From: Rhodococcus spelaei
Lineage (GTDB): Bacteria; Actinomycetota; Actinomycetes; Mycobacteriales; Mycobacteriaceae
Assembly (NCBI RefSeq): GCF_006704125.1
Contig: NZ_VIGH01000001.1
Coordinates: 434,001 to 498,000, forward strand
Length of the DNA stretch: 64,000 nucleotides
Direction of reading: 5' to 3'
Of this stretch, positions 22,990 through 35,738 are shown piece after piece. How positions within the stretch are numbered: position 1 is the first letter of the stretch; each line of letters starts with the position of its first letter. The notes under the pieces are model-generated. The model saw nothing but the letters and a program-made list of their open reading frames with translations. It was not told the origin of the DNA and did no database searches. Position numbers and translations under genes: made by a program.

Positions 22990-23105
22990 CGTCGGGTCGG
23001 TCGCTCCGCTCCCTCCGCCGAGTGTGCAGTTTCCGGAGCATCCCCAGAGTGCGGGCGTCGGCAGGTGCACTTTCGCCGGACGCGGGCGGCGGCATCCACG
23101 GCAAC

Positions 23106-23132
23106 GGCCCCCGACTGTCAGGGTCGGGGGCC
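23106..23132 (-). terminator. Terminator behind the first small-peptide gene
   Basis: GGCCCCCGAC (23106-23115) pairs perfectly with GTCGGGGGCC (23123-23132), loop TGTCAGG, 18 bases beyond the stop of the 40-residue ORF. It may also stop the operon arriving from the left. Confidence 0.65.
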
Positions 23133-23150
23133 GCCGGAGGGAGCGCGTGA

Positions 23151-23273
23151 TCAGCTGCTGAAGCCGCCGACCAGCTTGCCGAAGATCTGGGCGACGCTCG
23201 TCAGGAGCGTGCCGGTGACATCCGCTCCGGTGCTGCCGGTCGTCGGAAAGGGCTTCGGGGTGGTGTCTGCCAT
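23151..23273 (-). CDS. 40-residue amphipathic peptide, possible envelope peptide
   Basis: A small ORF with a GGAGG site 4 bases before its ATG encodes MADTTPKPFPTTGSTGADVT, then a helix-forming part GTLLTSVAQIFGKLVGGFSS. Hydrophobic residues recur every three to four positions, giving one greasy face. There is no signal peptide. A terminator follows. A similar gene lies 0.9 kb away at 24128. Short, signal-less, amphipathic peptides ending in FSS recall the corynebacterial porin peptide PorH; this likeness is my inference. It is a new small-gene candidate rather than a recognised family. Confidence 0.6.
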   Translation of the reverse strand: MADTTPKPFPTTGSTGADVTGTLLTSVAQIFGKLVGGFSS

Positions 23274-23461
23274 GGGGTCCTCCGTGGAGTGTCAGGTTCG
23301 TTGTGCACAGGAAACGTAGCCGAATGGATCGGCCTGCACACGGGTTGGAATCCGTGCGCGCCAAACCGTAGGAGGCGAGGATGACAGTCGGGTGTCAGCC
23401 ACGTGAACAGGTGTCTCACTGAACGGGAAAACGGCTGTTCGGCAACGGTTTCGGGTCGAAC

Positions 23462-24016
23462 TCAGGCGCGCCTTCCGAGCCAGCCGAGCAGCCGGGTCTG
23501 CTCGTTGGCGCCGGCGGCCACCTCGACGGCCGGTCCGCAGACCCCGGGCGTACGGATCTGCTCGCCGGCCTGGTCGGCGAAGCCGCGGGCGAGTGCGAGG
23601 TCGTCCGCAGGAATCTCCTCGTCCGAACCCGTCGCACGCGCCAGATCCCAGCGGTGCACCACCAAGTCGAAGCAGAAGAAGGTGCCGAAGGTGGCCGCGA
23701 CCGAGGTGCGGCCGAGCTGGCCTTCGTACTCGCGGCTCGCCAGCTCCGGGTCGTCGAGGATGGCAAGCACCGCGTCACGGGTCTGCGTCCAAGCGCCGAC
23801 CGGATCGACGTCGACCTCCGGAACCGCGGGCAGCTTCAGTCCGGCAGGAGTGAGCGGATACGACTGCGTCTCGACGACGTGGCGGACCACATCCCGTGCG
23901 GTCCACCCCTCACATGGGGAGGGGTTCTCCCAGCCATCCGCAGGCACCTTCTCGACGGTGCGGGAGAACGTCTCGGCAAGGCGGCGGTAGCGCGCGGCAG
24001 TATCTGTGGTGTTCAT
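23462..24016 (-). CDS. TIGR03086-type DinB/MDMPI metal-binding protein
   Basis: This 184-residue protein has the four-helix DinB/maleylpyruvate-isomerase N-terminal pattern: RYRRLAETFSRTVEKVPADGWENPSPCEGWTARDVVRHVVET, with a metal-binding His in DVVRHVVE and a second in FDLVVHRWDLARATG. Members are mycothiol-dependent transferases or isomerases in Actinobacteria. ATG 24016 is preferred; a GTG directly before it is in frame. The substrate is unknown. It lies between the two small-peptide genes on the same strand. The gap 23274-23461 holds nothing I can name. Confidence 0.82.
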   Translation of the reverse strand: MNTTDTAARYRRLAETFSRTVEKVPADGWENPSPCEGWTARDVVRHVVETQSYPLTPAGLKLPAVPEVDVDPVGAWTQTRDAVLAILDDPELASREYEGQLGRTSVAATFGTFFCFDLVVHRWDLARATGSDEEIPADDLALARGFADQAGEQIRTPGVCGPAVEVAAGANEQTRLLGWLGRRA

Positions 24017-24081
24017 CACTTCATGGTGCGGTGCGCGCTGGGCTTCGTCTTGAACATTCGCGTCATGGGGCCGGAACGCGA

Positions 24082-24115
24082 AACGGCCCCACCCGACGAC
24101 TCGGGTGCGGCCGTT
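24082..24115 (-). terminator. Terminator behind the second small-peptide gene
   Basis: Arms at 24082-24096 and 24101-24115 (AACGGCC...ACCCGA against TCGGGTG...GGCCGTT) pair with one C-C mismatch around a CGAC loop, 12 bases beyond the stop of the 41-residue ORF. Confidence 0.65.
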
Positions 24116-24127
24116 CGGGGCGACGAG

Positions 24128-24253
24128 TCAGCTGAGACTGATGTTGTTCACGATGCTGGACAGCGCCTTGGCGGTGACGTTGATGATGTCGGCAATGCCC
24201 GCCGTGGTGCCGTTGACGGTGCCGGGGATGTTGCTGGAGCCGAGGTTTGCCAT
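24128..24253 (-). CDS. 41-residue amphipathic peptide, likely relative of the one at 23151
   Basis: The ORF encodes MANLGSSNIPGTVNGTTAGI followed by ADIINVTAKALSSIVNNISLS. GAGAGG stands 6 bases before the ATG. As in the peptide at 23151, a short Ser/Thr/Pro N-terminus leads to an amphipathic helix with hydrophobic residues at a 3-4 period, no signal sequence, a serine-rich end and its own terminator. Sequence identity between the two is low, so relatedness rests on size, layout and helix pattern. A mycomembrane or secreted peptide is a possible role. Confidence 0.55.
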   Translation of the reverse strand: MANLGSSNIPGTVNGTTAGIADIINVTAKALSSIVNNISLS

Positions 24254-24453
24254 GGTGGCCTCTCACGTAGACAGTGGTGCGGCCGGGGATCGGCGCACGG
24301 GGACTGTAACCGACGTTGGCGGTGCGCGCACGGACGGATACGTCGCAGGTCAGGCTAGGTTTCTGTTCGGTTAACAGCATCCCAACCGCCGGGATACGGG
24401 TTGTGGTCATGACGTGCCGGCGGTACCCGCGATCGGCGACGGTGACGAAGACG

Positions 24454-24490: not shown

Positions 24491-26119
<1,629 letters not shown>

Positions 26120-34796: not shown

Positions 34797-35738
34797 TCAG
34801 GCGCGCGCAGCCTCCCTGGCGAGCGTGCGTTCGCGCGACTCCTCGAACCGGGTCGCCGACTGTTGCAGCGTCTCGAGGTAGTCGCCGAGCTGGTCGCGGG
34901 CGCGTTCACCCGCGCCGGTGAAGTCGTTGCGTTCGAACACCTTCCACATGCGCAGCACGGGGAGCAGCACCTCGTCCAGGTGCTGGCGGAGGTCGTAGAT
35001 CCCGTGCTTGGCCAGCAGCACCGCGTTGCGCCGGAATCCGGGCATCGTCAAGCCGGGCATCTGGAAATTGGTCACCACCTCGGTGAGTGCCTCCATCGCC
35101 GGGTCGGGGGCCACGTCGAGCGCGGCGCCCGCGAGGTTCCGGTAGAAGACCATGTGCAGGTTCTCATCGGCCGCGACGCGGTCGAGCATCCGCTCGGCGA
35201 CGTCGTCCTCACACGCCTTGCCGGTGTTTCGGTGCGAGAGTCGCGTCGCCAGTTCCTGGAATGTCACGTACGCGACGGAATGCAGGAACGACCCTTCCAT
35301 CGGCGAGACGAGCCCGTTGGTCATGTGCTCGAGGCGGAACTGTTCGAGCTGGACCGGGTCGACCGCGCGGGTCACCGTCAGGTAGTCGCGCATGACGATG
35401 CCGTGCCGGTTCTCCTCGGCGGTCCACCGGTTCACCCAGGTGCCCCACGCCCCGTCGCGGGAGAAGCTGGCCGCGATTTCCCGGTGGTACGAGGGCAGGT
35501 TGTCCTCGGTGAGCAGGTTCGTGATCATGGCGGCCTTCGCGACCTCGGAAAGCCTCGACTGATCGGGATCCCAGTCCTCGCCGCCCATCGCGGCGAAGTT
35601 CCGGCCCTCGTCCCACGGGACGTAGTCGTGCGGATTCCAGTTCTTGGCGATCGACAGATGTCGGTTGAGATTCGCCTCGACCGTGGGTTCGAGCTCCCGG
35701 AGCAGGTCGAGTTGTGCCGGAGTCGAGAACATCGCCAT
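34797..35738 (-). CDS. Diiron acyl-ACP desaturase, DesA type
   Basis: A 313-residue soluble desaturase. The iron ligands are visible in TEDNLPSYHREI, TAEENRHGIVMRDYL and DENLHMVFYRNL, with a further Glu in VTFQELATRLSH. The family (DesA1/DesA2 in mycobacteria) introduces double bases into acyl-ACP chains, including mycolic acid precursors; mycolata keep several copies. GGGAG stands before the ATG. Placement next to an esterase and upstream of fadAB suggests a lipid theme. The 35739-35994 gap shows no gene but must hold divergent promoters. Confidence 0.92.
   Translation of the reverse strand: MAMFSTPAQLDLLRELEPTVEANLNRHLSIAKNWNPHDYVPWDEGRNFAAMGGEDWDPDQSRLSEVAKAAMITNLLTEDNLPSYHREIAASFSRDGAWGTWVNRWTAEENRHGIVMRDYLTVTRAVDPVQLEQFRLEHMTNGLVSPMEGSFLHSVAYVTFQELATRLSHRNTGKACEDDVAERMLDRVAADENLHMVFYRNLAGAALDVAPDPAMEALTEVVTNFQMPGLTMPGFRRNAVLLAKHGIYDLRQHLDEVLLPVLRMWKVFERNDFTGAGERARDQLGDYLETLQQSATRFEESRERTLAREAARA

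Follow-up and report, generated by a model that had tools for sequence, protein, structure and literature searches.

The closest described counterparts of the two peptides reported here are tiny mycomembrane proteins of Corynebacterium. PorH (57 aa) and PorA (45 aa) of C. glutamicum are helical and have no signal sequence (PMC5310785, PMC11927696). PorH ends in 54NFSS57 and is mycoloylated at Ser56, and the same end, 123NFSS126, is found in PorB of Corynebacterium (PMC5310785). ProtX (Cg2875) of C. glutamicum, a protein of 38 aa without a signal sequence, ends in SS and is mycoloylated at Ser37 (PMC5310785); adsorption of phage Cog depends on ProtX, and a later step depends on PorA (PMC9671496). 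The mapped mycoloylation sites are found among Ser, Gly and Ala and follow no strict motif (PMC11066868). PorACj of C. jeikeium (jk0268, 40 aa) has no signal sequence and its gene has its own Shine-Dalgarno sequence and stem-loop (PMC3792995). PorACj and PorACur of C. urealyticum (37 aa) both lack a Sec or Tat signal and form an amphipathic helix (PMC3792995, PMC5944148), and they have only four identical residues in common (PMC5944148).

For Rhodococcus, the MspA-family porins PorARc, PorARr and PorBRr have been described as channel formers (PMC9233653). Two points are treated as open in the literature: the path of signal-less peptides across the plasma membrane to the mycomembrane in C. glutamicum (PMC12632848) and, as of 2017, protein mycoloylation in genera other than Corynebacterium (PMC5310785). 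Our searches of the open-licence literature, which covered protein mycoloylation, the PorA/PorH porins, ProtX and channels of the cell wall, turned up no paper that describes such peptides from Rhodococcus.

Two tiny genes in the window

We analyzed a stretch of 64,000 nucleotides of Rhodococcus spelaei (the window), in which a first-pass annotation had marked two open reading frames (ORFs) of 40 and 41 codons on the minus strand. Both are present and are called pep1 and pep2 here (Table 1). The annotation had credited both with good ribosome sites, which holds for the strong site of pep1 but is slightly generous for pep2, whose site in the window rates as moderate; the pep2 Shine-Dalgarno sequence is GGAGG in all three relatives that carry the gene (R. 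tukisamuensis, R. maanshanensis and R. oryzae). The homologues are 40-42 aa long in all eight genes (pep1 and pep2 in four species), with 88-97% G+C at the third codon position versus 49-62% at the second.

Table 1. Features of the pep1/pep2 locus and of the g2 peptide. Positions refer to the window unless a contig is given.
Feature	Position	Strand	Remarks
tRNA-Ser(GGA)	24491..24578	(-)	landmark upstream, same strand
18-bp element GTTAACCGAACAGAAACC	24358..24375	(-)	upstream of pep2; putative regulator site
pep2 -10-like box TACAGT	24303..24308	(-)	at -55
pep2 Shine-Dalgarno GAGG	24259..24262	(-)	moderate, 5-nt gap
pep2 gene	24128..24253	(-)	41 aa, MANLGSSNIPGTVNGTTAGIADIINVTAKALSSIVNNISLS; ATG start; homologues in 3 other species
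pep2 terminator-like hairpin	24084..24113	(-)	MFE -36.0 kcal/mol
TIGR03086-family (mycothiol-dependent isomerase-like) gene	23462..24019	(-)	between pep1 and pep2
pep1 -10-like box TACGTT	23313..23318	(-)	at -45
pep1 Shine-Dalgarno GGAGGA	23278..23283	(-)	strong, 4-nt gap
pep1 gene	23151..23273	(-)	40 aa, MADTTPKPFPTTGSTGADVTGTLLTSVAQIFGKLVGGFSS; ATG start; homologues in 3 other species
pep1 terminator-like hairpin	23105..23133	(-)	MFE -33.3 kcal/mol
g2 peptide, G006	G006:C11:89901-90020 (L110/L111)		ends GSSG
g2 peptide, G036	G036:C226:584-703 (L112)		ends GSSG

As a background, 864 kb of the R. spelaei genome G000 (the window and 800 kb, 18% of 4.8 Mb) were scanned for tiny ORFs with a Shine-Dalgarno sequence and suitable composition. 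Among the 68 that passed this filter, four had a TANNNT box at -75 to -30 and 15 a hairpin with a stem of nine or more pairs; the two with both features were exactly pep1 and pep2. The filter was chosen after the pair had been seen, and the scan therefore measures specificity only and is no independent discovery. Chance ORFs are ruled out by this background together with the conservation described below, and we are nearly certain that pep1 and pep2 are real genes.

Occurrence and divergence of the pair

The first-pass annotation would have been refuted by a lack of reading-frame conservation in relatives, but conservation was found: both peptides are intact and in frame in four of the six analyzed genomes of the genus, those of R. 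spelaei, R. tukisamuensis, R. maanshanensis and R. oryzae. Compared with the window, the latter three show 60, 53 and 50% identity for pep1 and 59, 38 and 38% for pep2, respectively. The start MA[DN] is conserved, as are a GS[ST] segment in 8/8 peptides and, in pep1, the end IFGxLVGxFSS. The codon-substitution analysis, likewise proposed in the first-pass annotation, gave a divided answer. In the closest pair, R. maanshanensis and R. oryzae, the two genes together differ by 7 synonymous and 4 amino-acid changes, for a dN/dS of 0.19 (P 0.01), whereas the ratio is about 0.9-1.8 between distant species (0.88 for R. spelaei and R. tukisamuensis, 1.27 for R. spelaei and R. oryzae and 1.77 for R. 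tukisamuensis and R. oryzae). Although strong codon bias lowers the number of synonymous changes, the plain reading of these ratios is fast protein divergence.

The other two genomes, G001 and G005, yielded neither peptide, whether at the locus or by profile search. These two are most alike by GroELb (97.2% versus 86.6-89.4% to the others); GroELa sets them apart only slightly (97.8% versus 95.4-97.1%), and aspT identity to the window gives no separation.

Outside the genus, profile searches of 301 sampled genomes of the family, in which a capped number of candidates was scored in each genome, gave no convincing match to pep1 or pep2. The pep1 profile (A1) hit 33 of the 301 genomes at E<=0.05, only the four genus members falling below 1e-20. 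The other 29 had E-values of 0.0026-0.047, and since 22 of the 31 weak matches listed lie in open frames of at least 200 codons, they are taken as chance. With the pep2 profile (A2), eight of the 301 genomes were hit at E<=0.02, four of them below 1e-20. Searches of Pfam and NCBIfam returned no match at E<=1 for the window peptides, and the few matches of the relatives were far below the cut-offs. Comparison of pep1 with pep2 by hhalign gave no real alignment, so that paralogy of the two is unsupported.

Separate transcription units and a shared upstream element

The landmarks of the locus are tRNA-Ser(GGA), the small SRP RNA and an aspartate-aminotransferase-like gene (aspT, named by eye). 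Outward from tRNA-Ser, the order is pep2, TIGR03086-like gene, pep1 and gluQ-like gene in R. tukisamuensis, and TIGR03086-like gene, pep2, pep1 and gluQ-like gene in R. oryzae, the genes of these relatives being named by eye; in the window, pep1 is followed by a convergent gene. In G005, the two corresponding spaces are short and hold neither peptide gene. We regard the TIGR03086-family gene as a neighbour that lies outside the peptide system. The pep1 and pep2 genes behave like one-gene cassettes. Elsewhere in the window, positions 35347-35414 (+) match the ASdes sRNA family known from tuberculosis bacteria (84.7 bits).

A single TANNNT box is located 45-60 bases upstream of the start codon in all eight genes and reads TACNGT in six of them, a motif that the window contains, on either strand, about 0.0006 times per base. 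The strong hairpin that had been reported after each ORF was confirmed. That of pep1 has a z-score of -3.7 (0/200 shuffles as good) and that of pep2 one of -2.3 (2/200), and the hairpins 3' of all eight genes fold better than shuffles, with z-scores from -2.3 to -5.0. Neither window hairpin has a long T run, so that their role in termination is putative. From these signals, pep1 and pep2 appear to be separate transcription units, each with its own box and hairpin.

At up to two mismatches, the 18-bp element occurs exactly once each in R. spelaei, R. maanshanensis and R. oryzae, and is not found in the G001 or G005 genomes. It precedes pep2 in R. spelaei, but pep1 in R. maanshanensis and R. oryzae. 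Its presence at one gene or the other suggests a common control of the pair. The distance from element to box is 49 bases for R. spelaei pep2 versus 38 for R. maanshanensis pep1, about one helical turn apart, and we infer a putative activator site. In R. tukisamuensis, the sole copy has two mismatches and lies just upstream of an acetyltransferase-like ORF, with no tiny peptide seen near it; the element thus stands before neither gene in this species, which speaks against it being required.

Peptide properties and a possible role in the mycomembrane

Both peptides have a Ser/Gly-rich start and contain no Arg, no Cys and almost no Lys. Judged by composition and hydropathy, they have no obvious signal peptide, with no Arg and no hydrophobic core near the start; the best 19-residue hydropathy is 1.1-1.5 and the net charge 0 to -4. 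The proposed amphipathic helix was borne out in both window peptides, whose best 18-residue helical moment exceeds that of shuffles (pep1, P 0.006; pep2, 0/1000). Seven of the eight peptides reach P<0.05, the exception being R. maanshanensis pep2 (0.064), and in two of the four pep1 sequences the best stretch lies near the N end and not the C end. The PorA sequence itself misses this test (0.14). For pep2, AlphaFold predicts a loose start, which contains the GSS segment, followed by one helix at residues 9-40, with a mean pLDDT of 77 from an alignment of only four sequences. The likeness of the pep1 end to that of PorH also stood, as FSS is invariant in 4/4 species and equal to the last three residues of PorH and of PorB. 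By comparison, pep2 ends in SLS or TIS in all four species, so that its penultimate residue is not Ser.

By analogy with the corynebacterial systems, pep1 and pep2 may be signal-less mycomembrane peptides that work like PorA, PorH and ProtX and would probably be mycoloylated, the reading that we favour, at about even odds. That the two are envelope peptides of the PorA/PorH/ProtX kind is likewise about evenly likely, whereas a channel appears possible but less probable. The peptides would be exported by the same route as PorA, PorH and ProtX, and a Cmt1-type mycoloyltransferase would attach mycolate to Ser. In pep1, the mycolate might sit on Ser39, the last residue but one of the FSS end, and/or in the GSTG segment; in pep2, the site would be the GSS segment (residues 5-7), which belongs to the unstructured stretch ahead of the helix. 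Anchored in the mycomembrane by the mycolate, the peptides might pack their helices, alone or together, into oligomers that serve as surface structures and perhaps as channels. Exposure to phages there would account for a fast-changing middle beside fixed ends. The step of which we are least sure is pore formation, because MspA-family genes are present in all six analyzed genomes of the genus: Rhodococcus has MspA-type porins, and a channel made of pep1 and pep2 is therefore not needed.

Of the 21 PF00756 matches in the R. spelaei genome, three (L155, L152 and L146) were compared with solved structures. Cmt1 is the best match of L155 and L152 (276 and 241 bits), ahead of PS1 (171 and 176 bits) and of Ag85, while L146 scores best against PS1, not Cmt1. 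By these scores, the genome appears to encode at least two Cmt1-like mycoloyltransferases. The L152 gene is located about 0.6 kb downstream of groEL (L171/L152, G000:C13:497497-500461), and the small-porin genes of Corynebacterium occupy a comparable place near groEL.

In favour of the mycomembrane reading we count the conserved tiny genes with their own signals, the FSS end of pep1, the GS[ST] segment, the amphipathic helix, the Cmt1-like enzymes, the shared 18-bp element and the likeness to PorH, ProtX and PorACj. We count against it that the pair is confined to one clade of the sampled family, that dN/dS is close to or above 1 between distant species, that pep2 is without an SS end, that neither peptide matches PorA or PorH, that the locus is a different one, that the two genes form no operon and that L146 is nearer to PS1.

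Alternative explanations

Among bacterial small proteins of this size, many function at the cytoplasmic membrane or within the cytosol, which counts for the view that pep1 and pep2 are small amphipathic peptides located there, for example membrane-surface adaptor or stress peptides, with no mycolate and no outer-membrane role. The missing signal peptide and the single amphipathic helix agree with this explanation, which we consider unlikely but worth serious attention. It is at odds with the invariant FSS end, which recurs in mycoloylated proteins, with the Ser/Gly-rich loose start and with the fast divergence beside fixed ends. Furthermore, for peptides on acidic inner membranes the absence of Arg and near-absence of Lys would be unusual.

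Size, lack of a leader, amphipathic helix and fast divergence would also suit secreted leaderless bacteriocins or surfactant-like peptides. We regard this as improbable: leaderless bacteriocins are usually cationic, in contrast to the neutral to negative charge observed here, and reading of the neighbourhoods in the window, R. tukisamuensis and R. oryzae revealed no adjoining immunity or transporter gene.

The numbers of MspA-family matches, 10-19 in each of the four genomes with the pair and one in each without it, would fit accessory peptides of MspA-type porins instead of an independent system, although some of these counts are fragments or contig-end pieces. Many of the matches lie in adjacent pairs. 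As G001 and G005 are most alike, this correlation may reflect one shared clade event, and no MspA gene was seen beside the peptide genes in the window, R. tukisamuensis or R. oryzae; such an accessory role seems quite improbable to us.

Toxins of type I toxin-antitoxin pairs might come to mind because the peptides are tiny and look membrane-active and their genes have hairpins and promoters of their own. We consider them very improbable given the low hydropathy of the best 19 residues, the absence of an Rfam antitoxin at the locus (the Rfam matches there are the tRNA and the SRP RNA), which leaves room for an undescribed antisense RNA, and the fact that two unlike peptides are kept together in 4/4 genomes with either. 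Least probable of all are regulatory leader peptides or RNAs whose ORF would only attenuate a neighbour: a short ORF followed by a hairpin is what they predict, but the neighbours differ (the TIGR03086 gene or pep1 after pep2, a convergent or gluQ-like gene after pep1), the C-terminal residues are conserved and there is no run of regulatory codons.

A further tiny-peptide candidate beside tRNA-Ser in another genus

The region upstream of aspT was surveyed in 61 regions, that of the window and those of 60 further genomes out of 118 in which aspT had a match; R. maanshanensis, with aspT on another contig, falls outside this set, and the G036 region comprises only 2.4 kb. Altogether, 32 ORFs passed a loose filter and seven a stricter one, from which window pep2 drops out because of its weaker Shine-Dalgarno sequence. 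The survey revealed one more strong candidate, in genus g2 (G006): a 40-residue peptide with a GTG start, MSLSDFTSLLSAWGDFGGLPSGIGDLLGGIAALLTAGSSG, beside the same tRNA-Ser. Its gene has a Shine-Dalgarno sequence, and the hairpin that follows is very stable (-42.5 kcal/mol, z -5.7). Its counterpart in G036, on a 2.2-kb contig without tRNA-Ser, is 93% identical; 8 synonymous and 2 amino-acid changes yield a dN/dS of 0.08 (P 0.0009), which places it under purifying selection between G006 and G036, and the 100 bases upstream are 40% identical in an ungapped comparison. The g2 peptide has no detectable homology to pep1 and no TANNNT box.

Further tiny ORFs were noted along the way. A 35-residue ORF, MGSSDEQLGQIGTIAGIGGIGLLAVWAGAGFVSMS (L215:122-229 (+), G000:C13), with a strong Shine-Dalgarno sequence and a hairpin stem of 14, possibly encodes a tiny membrane peptide. 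A 28-residue ORF, MEDLLPVLFTSIGYIVTIATNAGGAGLS (L217:13249-13335 (-), G000:C13), with a Shine-Dalgarno sequence and a hairpin, lies just downstream of an apparent secreted serine protease gene. In G036, a 75-aa ORF upstream of aspT (L116, G036:C50:1-2400) resembles, by eye, the end of an MspA-type protein.

A more general and rather doubtful idea is that mycolate-bearing bacteria beyond Corynebacterium carry independent, fast-evolving, signal-less mycoloylated peptides beside their MspA porins. If true, the Rhodococcus pair and the unrelated g2 peptide at the same tRNA-Ser would be examples of a broader group of tiny mycomembrane proteins overlooked by gene callers, which possibly form heteromeric helical channels and phage receptors.

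Comparison with PorA/PorH and related systems

The idea of a PorA/PorH counterpart, put forward in the first-pass annotation, held for size, missing signal and amphipathic helix, and failed for locus, operon, sequence similarity and the end of pep2. The porH and porA genes share an operon that is flanked by groEL2 and ppk2, while pep1 and pep2 lie near tRNA-Ser and aspT as separate transcription units; in the window and in R. tukisamuensis a gene lies between them, so no tandem co-transcribed pair is formed. The groEL genes of R. spelaei are on contigs C13 and C18 and the peptides on C1. At the 12 groEL loci of the six genomes, six loci held 11 filter-passing tiny ORFs, none of which resembles pep1 or pep2 by eye. 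Comparison of A1 with PorH and of A2 with PorA by hhalign gave a probability below 1% and no detectable homology, a weak test. Sequence is in any case a poor test of membership because even PorACj and PorACur share so few residues.

The MspA-family porins, with about 20 kDa or more, signal peptides and a beta-barrel, are unrelated to pep1 and pep2. In contrast, PorA and PorH are also tiny, signal-less and helical, again with two peptides per genome, and the FSS end of pep1 recalls PorH, in which the penultimate Ser is mycoloylated. ProtX is likewise the product of a single tiny gene, without a signal and ending in SS. PorACj and PorACur are of the same size as pep1 and pep2, with their own Shine-Dalgarno sequence and stem-loop, no Sec or Tat signal and an amphipathic helix; they differ by their location between groEL2 and ppk2 and by channel activity demonstrated in bilayers. 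Given the differences in locus, operon and similarity, we do not count pep1 and pep2 among the PorA/PorH members, although they probably work like them. Taken together, this conserved, separately controlled Rhodococcus pair and the Cmt1-like enzymes provide named genes for both questions raised by the corynebacterial systems, the path of signal-less peptides to the mycomembrane and protein mycoloylation outside Corynebacterium.
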